Virus record (IMG/VR): IMGVR_UViG_3300043446_000435
Coordinates: 1-64,000 of that record
Origin: a virus
Length of the DNA stretch: 64,000 bases
Direction: 5' to 3' (one strand)
Under the pieces are notes generated by a model. It was not told the origin of the DNA and did not search any database. It worked only from the letters and a program-made list of their open reading frames with translations. Of the stretch, positions 13,348 to 56,109 are shown in pieces. Within the stretch, counting starts at the first letter, position 1; each line of letters opens with the position of its first letter. Both the position numbers and the translations under genes were made by a program.

Positions 13348-14718
13348 ATGAAAAATACACTTACAGCTCTGGCGCTTCTTGCCTCGACCAGCCTCGCTGG
13401 TGCGGTAGATCTGCCATCTGGAAAGGCTCAACCACAAGCACCAGCAAATTATGTTAAGGTGTGTGATGCTTATGGTTCTGGCTTTTTCTATATTCCTGGA
13501 ACTGATTCATGCTTGCGTGTTGGCGGTATGGTTCGACAGGATTTTGCTTATGTCCCTGCGGGTGACACATATAAGGTAACAGCTGGTGCTCGTGCTATCA
13601 ACACATACGGCGCTGGTCAGAATACAACGGGATGGGAAACTCGTGGTCGTATTGATCTCGATGCTCGCACTCCAACCGACTTCGGCACTGTAAGAACTGC
13701 TGCTGGTATTCGTTTCTCGCGTTCATCAGGCACTCTTGCTGACGTAGCAAATCCATCAGGTGCTTCGCAGTCTGCAACGACTACGACTCCTATCATGGAA
13801 TATGCTTACATCCAGTTCGCTGGTATCACTGCTGGTGCTGCACGAGACAACTTCTCGTTCATGCCTTCAGCTGTTTACTCAGCACAGCACTGGGCTTCGT
13901 TCATCATCAATCCTAAGCAGCTTTCTTATACTGCCATTCTTGGTGGCGGTCTGAGTGCAACAGTTGCTGTTCAGGATGCTACTGATACAGCGATTGCTCC
14001 AGTCGATGGCGTAAATGCTACGACGACTTACTATGCTCCACAGAACGAAAAGAATCTTACTCTCGTAGGTAATCTCCGTTGGGATCAGCCTTGGGGTCAG
14101 GTTCAGGTTATGGGTGCTGGTCGTCAGGCACAAGTTCTTGACACAACTGGTCTAACATACAATCAGACAAAGAGCGTATGGGCAGCTGGCGGTGGTCTCA
14201 AGATCAACACTCCATTCACTGGTAATCAGCAGAACGCTCTGTGGCTTACAGCAGCTTATGCCGACGGTATGACTGAATACACTACAGCATACGGTTCGAA
14301 CAAGATTGCTAACTGGAAGCGTGATCTCAATGGTTGGCAGATGAATCAGCCTTCGATCATTGCTTACAGCACTGGTATCGAGTCTGTTAAGTCTTGGAAC
14401 GCTGCTGCTCTGTATCAGCATTGGCTGACTGACAAGTATCGTATCAATGCGTTTGGTTCATACGGTCAGATTCAGGCTCCAGAATCAGCTAAGGCTTTGG
14501 TGTTCGACGCTAAGAAGGGCTTCGGTGACGCTACTGTTTGGTCAGTCGGTTCAAACTTCGCTTGGCTTCCTACAAAGGACTTCGAGCTTGGCATTGAAGG
14601 TATCTACTCAAACATGAAGCAAGACATCCGTTATACACTCGCTTCTTCAACGAATAAGGTTGAAAGAGAAAGCGATAATAACTGGACGATGCGTCTTCGT
14701 GCTGAACGTCGCTTCTAA
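13348..14718 (+). CDS. Outer-membrane porin of the Rhizobiales type (porin family 2)
   Basis: 456 aa. A signal peptide MKNTLTALALLASTSLAGA is followed by VDLPSGKAQPQ and then VCDAYGSGFFYIPGTDSCLRVGG, the N-terminal signature of Brucella Omp2 and rhizobial RopA-type porins, including the Cys pair. Alternating beta-strand sequence runs to a terminal Phe (LRAERRF), the export signal of outer-membrane beta-barrels. It has a strong ribosome site (AAGGAG) and a nearby promoter. A phage copy would insert a new pore in the host outer membrane; why is unknown. Confidence 0.88.
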   Translation: MKNTLTALALLASTSLAGAVDLPSGKAQPQAPANYVKVCDAYGSGFFYIPGTDSCLRVGGMVRQDFAYVPAGDTYKVTAGARAINTYGAGQNTTGWETRGRIDLDARTPTDFGTVRTAAGIRFSRSSGTLADVANPSGASQSATTTTPIMEYAYIQFAGITAGAARDNFSFMPSAVYSAQHWASFIINPKQLSYTAILGGGLSATVAVQDATDTAIAPVDGVNATTTYYAPQNEKNLTLVGNLRWDQPWGQVQVMGAGRQAQVLDTTGLTYNQTKSVWAAGGGLKINTPFTGNQQNALWLTAAYADGMTEYTTAYGSNKIANWKRDLNGWQMNQPSIIAYSTGIESVKSWNAAALYQHWLTDKYRINAFGSYGQIQAPESAKALVFDAKKGFGDATVWSVGSNFAWLPTKDFELGIEGIYSNMKQDIRYTLASSTNKVERESDNNWTMRLRAERRF

Positions 14719-22465: not shown

Positions 22466-22494
22466 TTGACAACCATGTACCAACGTGGTATGAT
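22466..22494 (+). promoter_or_regulatory. Sigma70-like promoter within the tRNA array
   Basis: TTGACA 22466-22471, 17-bp spacer, TATGAT 22489-22494. CCATGT-ACCA-ACGTGG in the spacer is an inverted repeat with one mismatch and the same ACCA centre as the element at 19628. It drives the structured RNA at 22593 and tRNA-Pro. Confidence 0.75.
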
Positions 22495-22550
22495 ACTAAA
22501 TATGCTGATTCGCTGTTTGACAATCTAATCTGGTAGGAACAATCGAAAGG

Positions 22551-22790
22551 TTGTTTCTTCATGGAGGCATCTAGGTGCTTCTTTGTAGAAACAACTGATT
22601 AGGTGTGGTGTTATGGAAAATCTCAGTGTTCCTGGGTAAGCGCACAGTCTATGGGTCCTCTGTCTGCAGGCACGGCCAATGCTGAGTTGTAACTGAAATA
22701 GGAGTCATGACCTGAAATAAGGTTACAGATTAAAGCGAACGGTATGGCGGTCTATCCATATCCATAACATAACATCACTCCTAATCAGTT
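22551..22790 (+). ncRNA. Highly structured non-coding RNA of unknown type
   Basis: This gene-free stretch (22456-22791) follows a promoter. AACTGATTAGG (22593-22603) pairs perfectly with CCTAATCAGTT (22780-22790), and the helix continues with minor interruptions through 22617/22761. Inside are CTCAGTGTT/AATGCTGAG (22622-22630/22678-22686, with G.T pairs) and TGTAAC/GTTACA (22688-22693/22722-22727). A separate 5' hairpin pairs GTTGTTTC (22551-22558) with GAAACAAC (22588-22595). No reading frame of note is present. I do not recognise it as RNase P RNA, a group I intron or 6S RNA. Confidence 0.55.
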
Positions 22791-22791
22791 A

Positions 22792-22868
<77 letters not shown>

Positions 22869-22957
22869 ATTAGGCGCAGGGGCGTAGGTATTGAAAGAGA
22901 TACATAGAGCTCTGCTGAAAAGAAGATCGACGGACGTATCTTCTCCTAAACATATTT

Positions 22958-23062: not shown

Positions 23063-23134
23063 GTGTCGTTGGTCTAATAGGATACGATTTCCTGCACGTG
23101 CGGGAAGACGTGGGTTCGAATCCCACACGACAGG
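23063..23134 (+). tRNA. tRNA-like gene with abnormal anticodon loop
   Basis: TGTCGT (23064-23069) pairs with ACGACA (23127-23132), and GTGGG-TTCGAAT-CCCAC is a perfect T-arm. The anticodon region holds the palindrome GCACGTGC: pairing TTTCC/GGGAA leaves a 9-nt loop, or a 7-bp stem leaves tetraloop ACGT. No anticodon can be assigned and CCA is not encoded. A CAGCAGA/TCTGCTG hairpin (23041-23063) abuts its 5' end. Confidence 0.5.
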
Positions 23135-23938: not shown

Positions 23939-23967
23939 ATTCACAGGAGATGGGAACCTGTGCGTCA

Positions 23968-24160
23968 CCAATCGTGTAATCGCGCGCTGCTGCCACGATT
24001 GGATATAGTGACTAGCCACTGAGGTCTAGAAGAGCAGCCGTCTTTTCCCGATACAACCTGTCACGCGAAAAGGTGACGCTGGATGGCAGTAACCAGCGGA
24101 TTTCGATGTGTTATAAAACGGCTAATAGTAAGATGACACAGTAGCCATTTCATAACACAT
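23968..24160 (+). ncRNA. Structured spacer RNA before tRNA-Asp
   Basis: CCAATCGTG (23968-23976) pairs with CACGATTGG (23994-24002), and ATGTGTTAT (24106-24114) with ATAACACAT (24152-24160) over 9 bp with an inner GGCTA/TAGCC stem. GTCAC/GTGAC near 24060 is a third hairpin. The last helix ends one base before tRNA-Asp. The 223-nt gap from 23939 shows no gene. Confidence 0.4.
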
Positions 24161-24161
24161 T

Positions 24162-24316: not shown

Positions 24317-24391
24317 GTTCCCTGAGCAAGACGGTAATGCGCGGGACTGCAAATCCTTGAGAATCCAGTTCGACTCTGGAAGGGAACTCCA
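24317..24391 (+). tRNA. tRNA-Cys(GCA)
   Basis: Acceptor GTTCCCT/AGGGAAC, discriminator T, CCA encoded. Loop CTGCAAA, anticodon GCA. Confidence 0.9.
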
Positions 24392-26077: not shown

Positions 26078-27097
26078 ATGTCAGAATTTCCAATTAAAAT
26101 CCGTTGGCTTATTGCGCATGATCCAGAGTATCTGTTCATCCGAACAGCTCAAGCATTTGCAGCAGAAGTCGACAGAGTTCTTCCTGGTCAGTTCGACTTC
26201 GAAATCTTAACTCCTGGATACTATAACAAGAAGTATGGAGACATTCCAGAACTGGGATGGGCTCCTGCTCGCGTTCCTGGAGTTGAGCTAGAACCAGCTG
26301 AAGGAACTGTAATCGTTCCTTGGGATGAAGATGTAAGTCGCATTTCTCGTGCATGGATGAAAGCTATGGATGATGGCAAGATCCACATGAGTCAGACTCA
26401 GATCACAGTCATCGGTGGATTCTATCGTCCATTCCACACTCTCGATCTTCCGTTCCTATTCAATGGTCACGAACACGTTTCTCGCGTTCTTGACGGAAAA
26501 ATTGGCGATGAGCTCTGTGAAGAACTGAGCAAGAACACACAAGCTCGTGGTCTTGGATTTACATACTCTGGTGGCTATCGTATCGTAGGTTCAAACGAAC
26601 CAATCGAAAGCCTAGAAGATCTGAACGAGATGGACATCACGACAGTTCCTTCGACGAGTAAGTTCTTTAGTGTTCTTGCTGAAAACGCTAAGACTCGTGA
26701 CTCACAGACTCAAGAAGAAATGATCGATTCGATTAAAAAAGGTAACGCGATCGAAACGACATATCTCAGATTCAAAGGCAAGAACATCCTTAAGACAAAT
26801 CACAGCATGTTCATGACGACGATTCTGATTAGCAACAAGCTATTCGATTCGCTGACTCCTGAACAACAGAAAGTGTTCCGTCGTGCGGCTAAGGAAGTTG
26901 CAAAGTTAGAACGTAAGTGGTCGGTTGATGATGCCGAGCAGTATGAAGTAAATGCTAAAGAAAACGGAATTACGATCAAAGAAGTAAGTAAAGAAGAAAA
27001 GATTAAGATGTTCGACGCTGCTGTTCCACAGTATCGTCTTGCGAATAAGCTGTTCCCAGGTTCTAGAGAACTGGTAGCCAAAATCAAAACTAGCTAA
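26078..27097 (+). CDS. TRAP-type (DctP) substrate-binding protein without signal peptide
   Basis: 339 aa. FYRPFHTLDLPFLFNGHEH (about residues 107-125), VLDGKIGDEL, ARGLGF, GGYRIVGSNEPIESLEDLNEM (about 162-182) and a conserved LTPEQQKVF near 267 follow the DctP fold of periplasmic TRAP binding proteins. The usual N-terminal export signal is missing: it starts MSEFPIKIRWLIA. It may therefore be a virion or cytoplasmic protein rather than a transporter part. It is preceded by a late-type TATAAATA box. Confidence 0.75.
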   Translation: MSEFPIKIRWLIAHDPEYLFIRTAQAFAAEVDRVLPGQFDFEILTPGYYNKKYGDIPELGWAPARVPGVELEPAEGTVIVPWDEDVSRISRAWMKAMDDGKIHMSQTQITVIGGFYRPFHTLDLPFLFNGHEHVSRVLDGKIGDELCEELSKNTQARGLGFTYSGGYRIVGSNEPIESLEDLNEMDITTVPSTSKFFSVLAENAKTRDSQTQEEMIDSIKKGNAIETTYLRFKGKNILKTNHSMFMTTILISNKLFDSLTPEQQKVFRRAAKEVAKLERKWSVDDAEQYEVNAKENGITIKEVSKEEKIKMFDAAVPQYRLANKLFPGSRELVAKIKTS

Positions 27098-54851: not shown

Positions 54852-55543
54852 GATTTGATCATAGTCCTTACATAGATTTACCAAGAGCAAAACAAATCAA
54901 CACACCATCGGGGCGTCGCTATCAGACCCCCGATGGAAACGTGTATCCTTCCATCACCACAGTTCTGGGCGATCAGCCGGAGAAGAAGAAAGCCATTGCT
55001 GAGTGGCGTGCTCGTGTTGGTGAAGCCGAAGCAAACAAAATCAGCTCGCAAGCCGCTCGTCGTGGTACCGATCTCCACAACCTTATGGAAACCTACATTT
55101 TAGGAGACGAGATTGATGCAAAGAAAATCATGCCCGCGACACTCGCACGTTTTCGTCCTGTTCAGAAATGTCTGGATGAGAATCTACAACTTGTTTATGC
55201 GTCTGAAACACCAATGTTCTCAGACATCCTCCGCATCGCAGGGACCGCAGACTTAATCTGCGAATGGAATGGCGAAGTGACTGTGATTGATTTTAAGACG
55301 GCTGCAAGAATGAAGACAGCCGATATGATTACCGACTACTTCCTACAAGCCACAGCCTACTCGATCATGTTCGAGGAGCATACTGGTATCGAATGTCATC
55401 ACTTTGCCATTCTCATGGTTTCTGACGAAGGCGAGTTCCAAGTATTCTCAGGCAAACGCAATGACTACGTCCGCCAATTGATTCGTGTAAGAGATCAATA
55501 TGAGTGGAGGAAAAGTCTTGACGAACACAGGCAAACCGCTTAA
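54848..55543 (+). CDS. PD-(D/E)XK exonuclease (RecB/Cas4-like)
   Basis: 231 aa with TTG start in TTGA. GTADLICEWNGEVTVIDFKTA (split motif: GTAD-L near residue 137, IDFKTA near 150) is the PD-(D/E)XK nuclease core, and a preceding E in an alpha helix plus QATAYSIMF near 172 (QxxxY) fit the RecB-like family. It may process DNA ends in recombination. tmRNA follows directly. Confidence 0.8.
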   Translation: MRFDHSPYIDLPRAKQINTPSGRRYQTPDGNVYPSITTVLGDQPEKKKAIAEWRARVGEAEANKISSQAARRGTDLHNLMETYILGDEIDAKKIMPATLARFRPVQKCLDENLQLVYASETPMFSDILRIAGTADLICEWNGEVTVIDFKTAARMKTADMITDYFLQATAYSIMFEEHTGIECHHFAILMVSDEGEFQVFSGKRNDYVRQLIRVRDQYEWRKSLDEHRQTA

Positions 55544-55551
55544 TATAAATA
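55518..55551 (+). promoter_or_regulatory. Probable tmRNA promoter region
   Basis: Two options overlap: TTGACG (55518-55523) with 17-bp spacer and TAATAT (55541-55546), and an exact T4 late box TATAAATA (55544-55551). Either would start transcription near the 5' end of the tmRNA. Confidence 0.55.
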
Positions 55552-55552
55552 T

Positions 55553-55866
55553 CACGCTGAGGTCGTTGAGGCGTATGGAATAAGCGTTTCGGACGCGGGT
55601 GCGATACCCGCCGCCTCCACCATAAACACAAGCGTCCTGCGAGAGAGTTGCTTTAGGGTAGGACGACAGGAAATAGAACAGCAACTAATACCTGTTCCAC
55701 TTGTGTTTATGATGGGGGCGAAATAGGTTCGACGGGATGCAGTAAAGATGCGAAGAGACCAAAAGCACGTTCTAGATGCAAACGACAATGCACCTGTAGC
55801 TATGGCACTCGCTGCCTAAGCATGAGCTCGGGAGGAGCTTGGAAACAGAATCCTCCCACTTCCCAC
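55553..55866 (+). ncRNA. ssrA: Circularly permuted two-piece tmRNA
   Basis: The acceptor piece comes first: GCGGG-TGCGATA-CCCGC T-arm, CGCCTCC, discriminator A and encoded CCA ending at 55622. The coding piece follows, from GGGGGCG (55714-55720), which pairs with CGCCTCC (one G.T), then TTCGACGGG. The tag frame at 55778-55819 reads ANDNAPVAMALAA-stop, a proper degradation tag ending LAA. CATAAACACAAG (55621-55632) pairs perfectly with CTTGTGTTTATG (55700-55711), closing the intervening loop for processing. GGGAGGA/TCCTCCC follows the tag. This order is the alphaproteobacterial form. Outer ends are approximate. Confidence 0.88.
55778..55819 (+). other. tmRNA tag reading frame
   Basis: Resume codon GCA, then codons for ANDNAPVAMALAA and TAA. 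Ribosomes stalled on broken mRNA would add this peptide. The LAA end is read by ClpXP. Confidence 0.85.
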
Positions 55867-55881
55867 ACATCGAGGTAGATT

Positions 55882-56109
55882 ATGTCTGATTCTAATGATA
55901 AGCGTCTCCGCTACGAAGTTCTTTGCACCGCAATTGGTTTAGTAGATCAAGAACTCTACTGGCGAAAAGAAAGTGGTGAGACTGTGACTGCTCCTCCTAC
56001 AGAAACATACATCAACAAAGCTAAAGAGCTGATGACATTCGTTGATGATATCGCTGATCCAACTGTAAAGACTGTCACTCAGCTTCTGACAGAACACATG
56101 GGTAAGTGA
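55882..56109 (+). CDS. Small acidic hypothetical protein
   Basis: 75 aa, GAGG upstream of the ATG. Helical and Thr/Glu-rich. It ends 4 bp before tRNA-Gln. No family recognised. Confidence 0.6.
   Translation: MSDSNDKRLRYEVLCTAIGLVDQELYWRKESGETVTAPPTETYINKAKELMTFVDDIADPTVKTVTQLLTEHMGK

Follow-up and report, generated by a model that had tools for sequence, protein, structure and literature searches.

The DNA analysed here (the window) comprises 64 kb of an 85,440-base IMG/VR virus record. The phage is T4-like, its single-stranded DNA-binding protein being closest to those of cyanophages (approximately 53-63% identity among the best matches). A permuted two-piece tmRNA of the alphaproteobacterial type, with the tag ANDNAPVAMALAA, is located at 55514-55910, adjoining the PhoH and exonuclease genes, and suggests an alphaproteobacterial host. 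The window also contains genes for an outer-membrane porin of the Porin_2 family (13348-14718; Pfam E = 1.8e-46), which is an unusual phage cargo, and for a DctP-type solute-binding protein (26078-27097). ARAGORN finds 26 tRNAs in the window. Two further tRNA-like sequences, at 23064-23134 and 24317-24388, are not called by ARAGORN, the second one being called by Rfam; these are possibly unusual or decayed tRNAs.

The locus considered here lies in the tRNA array, upstream of tRNA-Pro (Table 1). No open reading frame of at least 30 amino acids starts on the plus strand, either between the end of tRNA-Glu (22455) and the start of tRNA-Pro (22792) or in the range of approximately 22470-22890, which agrees with the claim of an earlier note that the promoter is followed by no gene.

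Table 1. Features of the locus upstream of tRNA-Pro (window coordinates).
Feature	Position	Strand	Support
Sigma70-type promoter: TTGACA (22466-22471), 17-nt spacer, TATGAT (22489-22494), extended TG	22466-22494	+	11 of 12 matches
boxA-like element CGCTGTTTGACA	22511-22522	+	Shared by the leaders of practically all tRNA-array relatives in the window's clade
Leader hairpins; GTTGTTTCT (22550-22558) can pair with AGAAACAAC (22587-22595)	22538-22586	+	Around the phage-variable hairpin cassette
Conserved RNA, approximately 205 nt	22587-22791	+	cmsearch, 233 bits with model R1; 71 distinct homologues in alignment A3
P1 closing helix, 5' strand	22593-22617	+	Helix 1: 98.8% of cells paired; double changes in 19 of 21 pairs
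P1 closing helix, 3' strand	22761-22790	+	Inverted repeat in the window and covariation
P2 hairpin, conserved GUGU in the loop	22622-22636	+	Helix 2, 98.3% paired
P3 arm with palindromic loop	22645-22686	+	Helices 4-6
P3 palindromic hexamer CUGCAG, proposed kissing-loop dimer site	22664-22669	+	
P4 arm; apical loop with GUCAUGAC (22704-22711), palindromic in the window copy	22690-22729	+	Helices 8-9
Most conserved unpaired stretch AAAGCGAACGG, consensus AAAGCRAACG	22732-22742	+	
P5 hairpin	22741-22762	+	Helix 10, 99.3% paired
tRNA-Pro(TGG)	22792-22868	+	Putative RNase P cut = 3' end of the RNA

The segment 22500-22795 folds with a minimum energy of -93.2 kcal/mol, compared to -75.7 kcal/mol in shuffled sequences (z = -3.66; none of 200 shuffles as good). 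Positions 22593-22603 and 22780-22790 form 11 perfect base pairs, followed inwards by a mismatch and further pairing, as part of a 23-nt inverted repeat; thus, the long helix described in the earlier note is indeed present, the consensus P1 having 21 pairs. This helix closes a multi-branched junction with four hairpins (P2, P3, P4, and P5) and with a short additional helix formed by 22641-22643 and 22735-22737. Some of the strands that remain unpaired, including GGAAAA, GCAC, AAAGC(A/G)AACG, and CCAUAACA, are invariant or nearly so among the copies, the joining strands being purine-rich. The helix ends at 22790, leaving a single nucleotide before tRNA-Pro, as had been noticed, and most relatives likewise abut a tRNA. 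The RNA itself spans 22587-22791 (205 nt); the 5' hairpin (approximately 22538-22586) turned out to be a separate part of the leader that varies between phages, and it is accompanied by a boxA that the earlier note does not mention.

Homologues were first collected by blastn and nhmmer searches of the region against loci fetched via the neighbouring genes, and then by scanning viral contigs for DNA patterns and by covariance models, one derived from 25 sequences and a later one from 76. The 76 matches represent 71 distinct copies, and a later scan added a few more. Nearly all of them come from uncultured viral contigs, the carriers being a large set of T4-like viruses that infect aquatic bacteria and have not been cultured; one copy (L298) sits in a short contig of a betaproteobacterial metagenome-assembled genome, probably a binned phage fragment. 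The segment 22587-22790 is conserved in other tRNA arrays, while two relatives, L004 and L005, have only the upstream leader. The copies fall into two groups, the window's clade (about 32 sequences of approximately 205 nt) and a divergent group (approximately 190-255 nt), and no virus record searched has more than a single forward-strand copy; matches of the model to the opposite strand were disregarded as the mirror image of P1.

We know of no cultured phage carrying the RNA, as blastn with five copies gave no match among cultured phages. A model scan of T4, S-CRM01, Cr30, HTVC008M, RpAliso, S-RSM4, and S-H9-1 also yielded nothing, although this is weak evidence, there being no first-look candidates in any of the seven. 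Among 190 potential host genomes, all of the class to which an Erythrobacter assembly belongs, there were two marginal model matches; the one inspected (L553) resembles protein-coding DNA.

If the element functions as a folded RNA, its relatives should show compensatory changes, and the absence of covariation had been named in the earlier note as grounds for refutation. The covariation is very strong. In alignment A3, standard pairs occupy 95.3% of the cells, compared to 72.6% after shuffling and 31-50% when the partners are slid by 1-3 columns. Double changes are seen in 48 of the 56 pairs (19 of 21 in P1 alone) and in 771 cells, versus 231 in shuffles and 69-101 with slid partners. As A3 was fitted to the covariance model, it favours the structure; in the first alignment, A2, made from sequence only, 21 pairs already had double changes. 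In L118, P1 is retained despite an almost completely different sequence. Hence the suggestion that this is a new structured phage RNA is well supported, and for the window element we regard it as practically beyond doubt. No Rfam 15 family, including 6S, T-box, RNase P, and introns, matches the window copy up to E = 10, and no match was obtained at permissive thresholds (E up to 1-10) in 13 loci with relatives, in line with the initial failure to recognise a class. A reduced form was seen on the minus strand of L404 (4739-5046), where the interior of the RNA is deleted with P1 and P5 retained; the gene neighbourhood is apparently the same as in L118.

The most unusual property of the family is found in the P3 loop. 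At a nearly fixed offset in P3, a self-complementary hexamer is present in all 71 distinct copies, and its sequence is not constant: there are 13-14 different hexamers (CUGCAG, UAGCUA, CGGCCG, GUCGAC, UUGCAA, UUCGAA, CCUAGG, CAGCUG, GUGCAC, UGAUCA, GCCGGC, UCUAGA, and ACUAGU). In shuffled P3 segments, a palindrome occurs in 5.9 of 71 copies on average (maximum 15). On a tree built from the RNA without the P3 region, the hexamer switches about 30 times and always gives way to another palindrome. The DNA patterns with which copies were sought all leave the hexamer out. In an independent scan with a new pattern, all of L518, L547, L514, and L505 were palindromic at P3, L514 with the previously unseen UGUACA; two other copies new to the set, L470 and L427, have CGGCCG. 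In a few copies, among them L398 and L411, more than one palindrome is available.

In retroviruses, the dimerisation initiation site (DIS) joins two identical RNAs by a hairpin loop with a 6-nt palindrome, whose sequence varies while the palindrome stays. The phage RNA would share this kissing-loop principle, but it is a mechanistic analogy only, with no homology and no genome-packaging signal here. If the loop pairs with its own copy in a second molecule, self-complementarity of the apical loop should be kept as the sequence changes, and this was observed in 71 of 71 copies and in those found later. Since P3 is always palindromic while its letters change, a kissing-loop homodimer is the simplest explanation. 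One observation counts against a dimer: local minimum-energy folding places the palindrome in the loop in only 38 of 75 copies, because a competing hairpin, found chiefly in the CUGCAG subgroup, sequesters some of the hexamer. Overall, we consider it likely that the RNA forms a homodimer via P3, the comparative evidence being strong and data on the dimer itself absent.

We next consider the placement of the copies relative to tRNAs. Of the 31 copies in the window's clade with enough flanking sequence, 28 have the start of a tRNA no more than 15 nt downstream and all 31 have one within 70 nt; in the divergent group, the respective numbers are 21 and 25 of 42. In 16 of 43 divergent copies, the RNA starts right where an upstream tRNA ends in CCA, several of these being sandwiched between two tRNAs, and some divergent copies lie in the middle of an array behind many tRNAs (e.g. 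L413, L419, and L447). Four copies (L118, L395, L398, and L410) are outside tRNA arrays, the one in L118 following a PhoH-like gene, an exonuclease gene (PHROG 298), and an ORF of 162 amino acids. Thus, adjacency to a tRNA is usual, though not obligatory, and the copies outside arrays speak for a role of the RNA on its own.

RNase P cuts at the 5' end of a tRNA. As the RNA abuts the next tRNA, the RNase P cut of that tRNA would produce the 3' end of the RNA, and, as some copies start at a tRNA CCA end and stop before the next tRNA, the tRNA-processing enzymes would define both ends. We deem it very likely that the RNA is excised together with the tRNAs, the processing being inferred from the abutment.

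The promoter and the 5' hairpin belong to the leader, separately from the RNA. The consensus promoter pointed out in the earlier note is indeed present, and, while the pattern alone is not beyond chance (one found, 0.8 expected), it occupies the same position in five relatives (L002, L004, L005, L008, and L089). The description of the RNA as promoter-driven applies to the window but not to the family: in at least seven relatives, the boxA leader directly follows the terminator-like hairpin of the upstream gene and no promoter can be recognised, and copies of the divergent clade lie mid-array or outside tRNA arrays; transcription itself is inferred. Between GTTGTTTCT and AGAAACAAC there is a cassette slot (22560-22586 in the window) that differs completely between phages; in several relatives, including L206, L210, and L205, it contains tRNA-like remnants, as if decayed tRNAs collect there.

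The boxA-like element was compared with rRNA operons. With at most one mismatch, CGCTGTTTGACA is found ahead of the 16S gene in seven alphaproteobacterial loci, at 137-306 nt from its start. Two more loci have it beyond the 16S end, one of these two matches being exact, and so the leader element passes as a boxA of the rrn type. The phage version is near-identical to the boxA upstream of the alphaproteobacterial 16S rRNA; it differs in preceding a tRNA array and in being separable from the RNA, as L004 and L005 keep the same leader without the RNA. We infer that it is a borrowed rrn boxA that would shield the untranslated array from Rho, its activity being likewise an inference. An rrn-type boxA before a tRNA array is possibly a general antitermination device of phages.

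This leader is the starting point of the main alternative, that the RNA is a cis-acting part of the leader of the tRNA operon. The boxA and the RNA would then modify the polymerase or serve as a processing stalk, ensuring correct transcription and cleavage of the long untranslated array, and the detached RNA would have no function. Polymerase-modifying RNAs exist, for example, the put RNA of HK022 and the EAR element. In all copies of the window's clade, the boxA leader is followed first by the RNA, and this boxA matches that of alphaproteobacterial rrn operons; the promoter and the boxA leader before tRNA-Pro are kept in L004 and L005. The same two relatives, however, have this leader without the RNA, divergent copies are mid-array or off-array, and the always-palindromic loop is left unexplained. 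Hence we consider a cis-acting leader unlikely.

A different alternative retains self-assembly and extends it to P4. The P4 region contains a palindrome in many copies, including the window's GUCAUGAC, and lacks it in more than a third, where the loops are GACGR or GGUYGCUCC. Finding a palindrome somewhere in the P4 segment is not unusual by chance, and P4 by itself does not reach significance. Using the self-complementary loops of both P3 and P4, the RNA could form a homo-oligomer of higher order, a ring or a cage, as a small-scale analogue of GOLLD and ROOL, which are also found near phage tRNA islands and form RNA-only nanocages (PMC12286853). P3 is palindromic everywhere and P4 in many copies, but the limits of the P4 palindrome just described count against this, and the geometry is purely inferred. 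We find this analogue quite improbable; its fuller statement, a small, widespread, self-assembling phage RNA closed into a ring or cage via P3 and P4 and excised by the tRNA-processing machinery, also remains unlikely. If true, it would provide a compact counterpart of GOLLD and ROOL, making the function of tRNA-array RNAs approachable with a 205-nt molecule.

Finally, selection at the DNA level, with the palindrome as a site of a DNA-binding protein or nuclease or the whole as a small mobile element with inverted ends, could account for the long inverted P1 ends and for relatives with and without the element at the same place, but it is hardly credible and disfavoured given the compensatory changes in every helix, the tolerated G-U pairs, the conserved unpaired strands, the single copy per genome, and the 13-14 unrelated hexamers, which exclude a single protein site.

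Phage tRNA arrays have long been known for stable RNAs of unknown function, such as RNA C and RNA D of T4, GOLLD, and ROOL. To our knowledge, RNA C and RNA D (species 1 and 2) have no known function. They resemble the window RNA in that a T4-like phage makes them, as stable RNAs, from its tRNA cluster (annotation in NC_000866), but are 139 and 119 nt long and located at the 3' end of the cluster; homology was ruled out by scoring the complete T4 tRNA cluster (best score 5.3 bits). GOLLD and ROOL are phage-encoded noncoding RNAs, often located by tRNA islands, of unknown function, homo-oligomeric, and assembling into RNA-only nanocages (PMC12286853). The position near phage tRNA islands, tested as a point of likeness, is shared by the window RNA, whereas the oligomer principle is only proposed for it; many GOLLD RNAs exceed 800 nt and ROOL RNAs have several hundred, compared to about 205 nt and another architecture here, and the Rfam 15 covariance models of GOLLD and ROOL match neither the window copy nor the relatives scanned.

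The motif GCAAACG recalls the start of the tmRNA tag (GCAAACGAC), which we judged to be a chance resemblance. In the RNA described here, the motif is followed by the covarying P5 hairpin, and the RNA lacks both conserved in-frame stops and a tRNA-like domain; neither Rfam nor ARAGORN calls a tmRNA at this locus, and the tmRNA of the phage is separate, at 55.5 kb. A literature search found no description of the RNA; an earlier report cannot be excluded, subscription papers being poorly covered. We file it as a new family of a known kind, the structured RNAs of phage tRNA arrays, with a dimerisation signature that is newly seen.

Taken together, the reading we favour, and hold to be fairly probable, is a new family of approximately 205-nt phage noncoding RNAs that would be co-processed with tRNAs, homodimeric, and probably trans-acting. 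Comparing the copies shows the fold, the palindromic loop, and the direct adjacency to tRNAs; processing, as well as expression, dimerisation, and function, is inferred. The RNA would be transcribed within the tRNA-array precursor, in the window phage from the promoter at 22466-22494, whose sequence is present and whose activity is presumed, and the borrowed rrn-type boxA would let the polymerase cross the untranslated array, if active. Maturation of the flanking tRNAs would then release it, with RNase P cutting the downstream tRNA at its 5' end and tRNA 3' processing or RNase E/III acting on the upstream side, as the abutment suggests. The released molecule is predicted to fold into one closed structure, with the long P1, the P2-P5 junction, and purine-rich joining strands, in accordance with the covariation, and two such molecules would pair via the self-complementary P3 loop as a kissing-loop homodimer, for which there is comparative support and no physical data. 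Hypothetically, the stable dimer would work in trans while the phage infects its host; a structural or scaffolding function is the most likely one, presenting the invariant joining strands GGAAAA, GCAC, AAAGCRAACG, and CCAUAACA to the translation or RNA-processing machinery. We lean towards action in trans, inferred from conservation only.

The family is small and found in dozens of uncultured viruses, and it combines very strong covariation with a homodimerisation signature in which the word changes and the palindrome stays. With a palindrome that can be broken and restored and a conserved core that can serve as bait for partners, the function of tRNA-array RNAs could be tested on a tractable molecule. 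Another spacer of the same array, between tRNA-Met and tRNA-Asp (23939-24161), also has a strong fold and is kept in L002 (89%) and L004 (72%), as well as in L005, L011, and L089; it is a candidate for another conserved RNA of the array.
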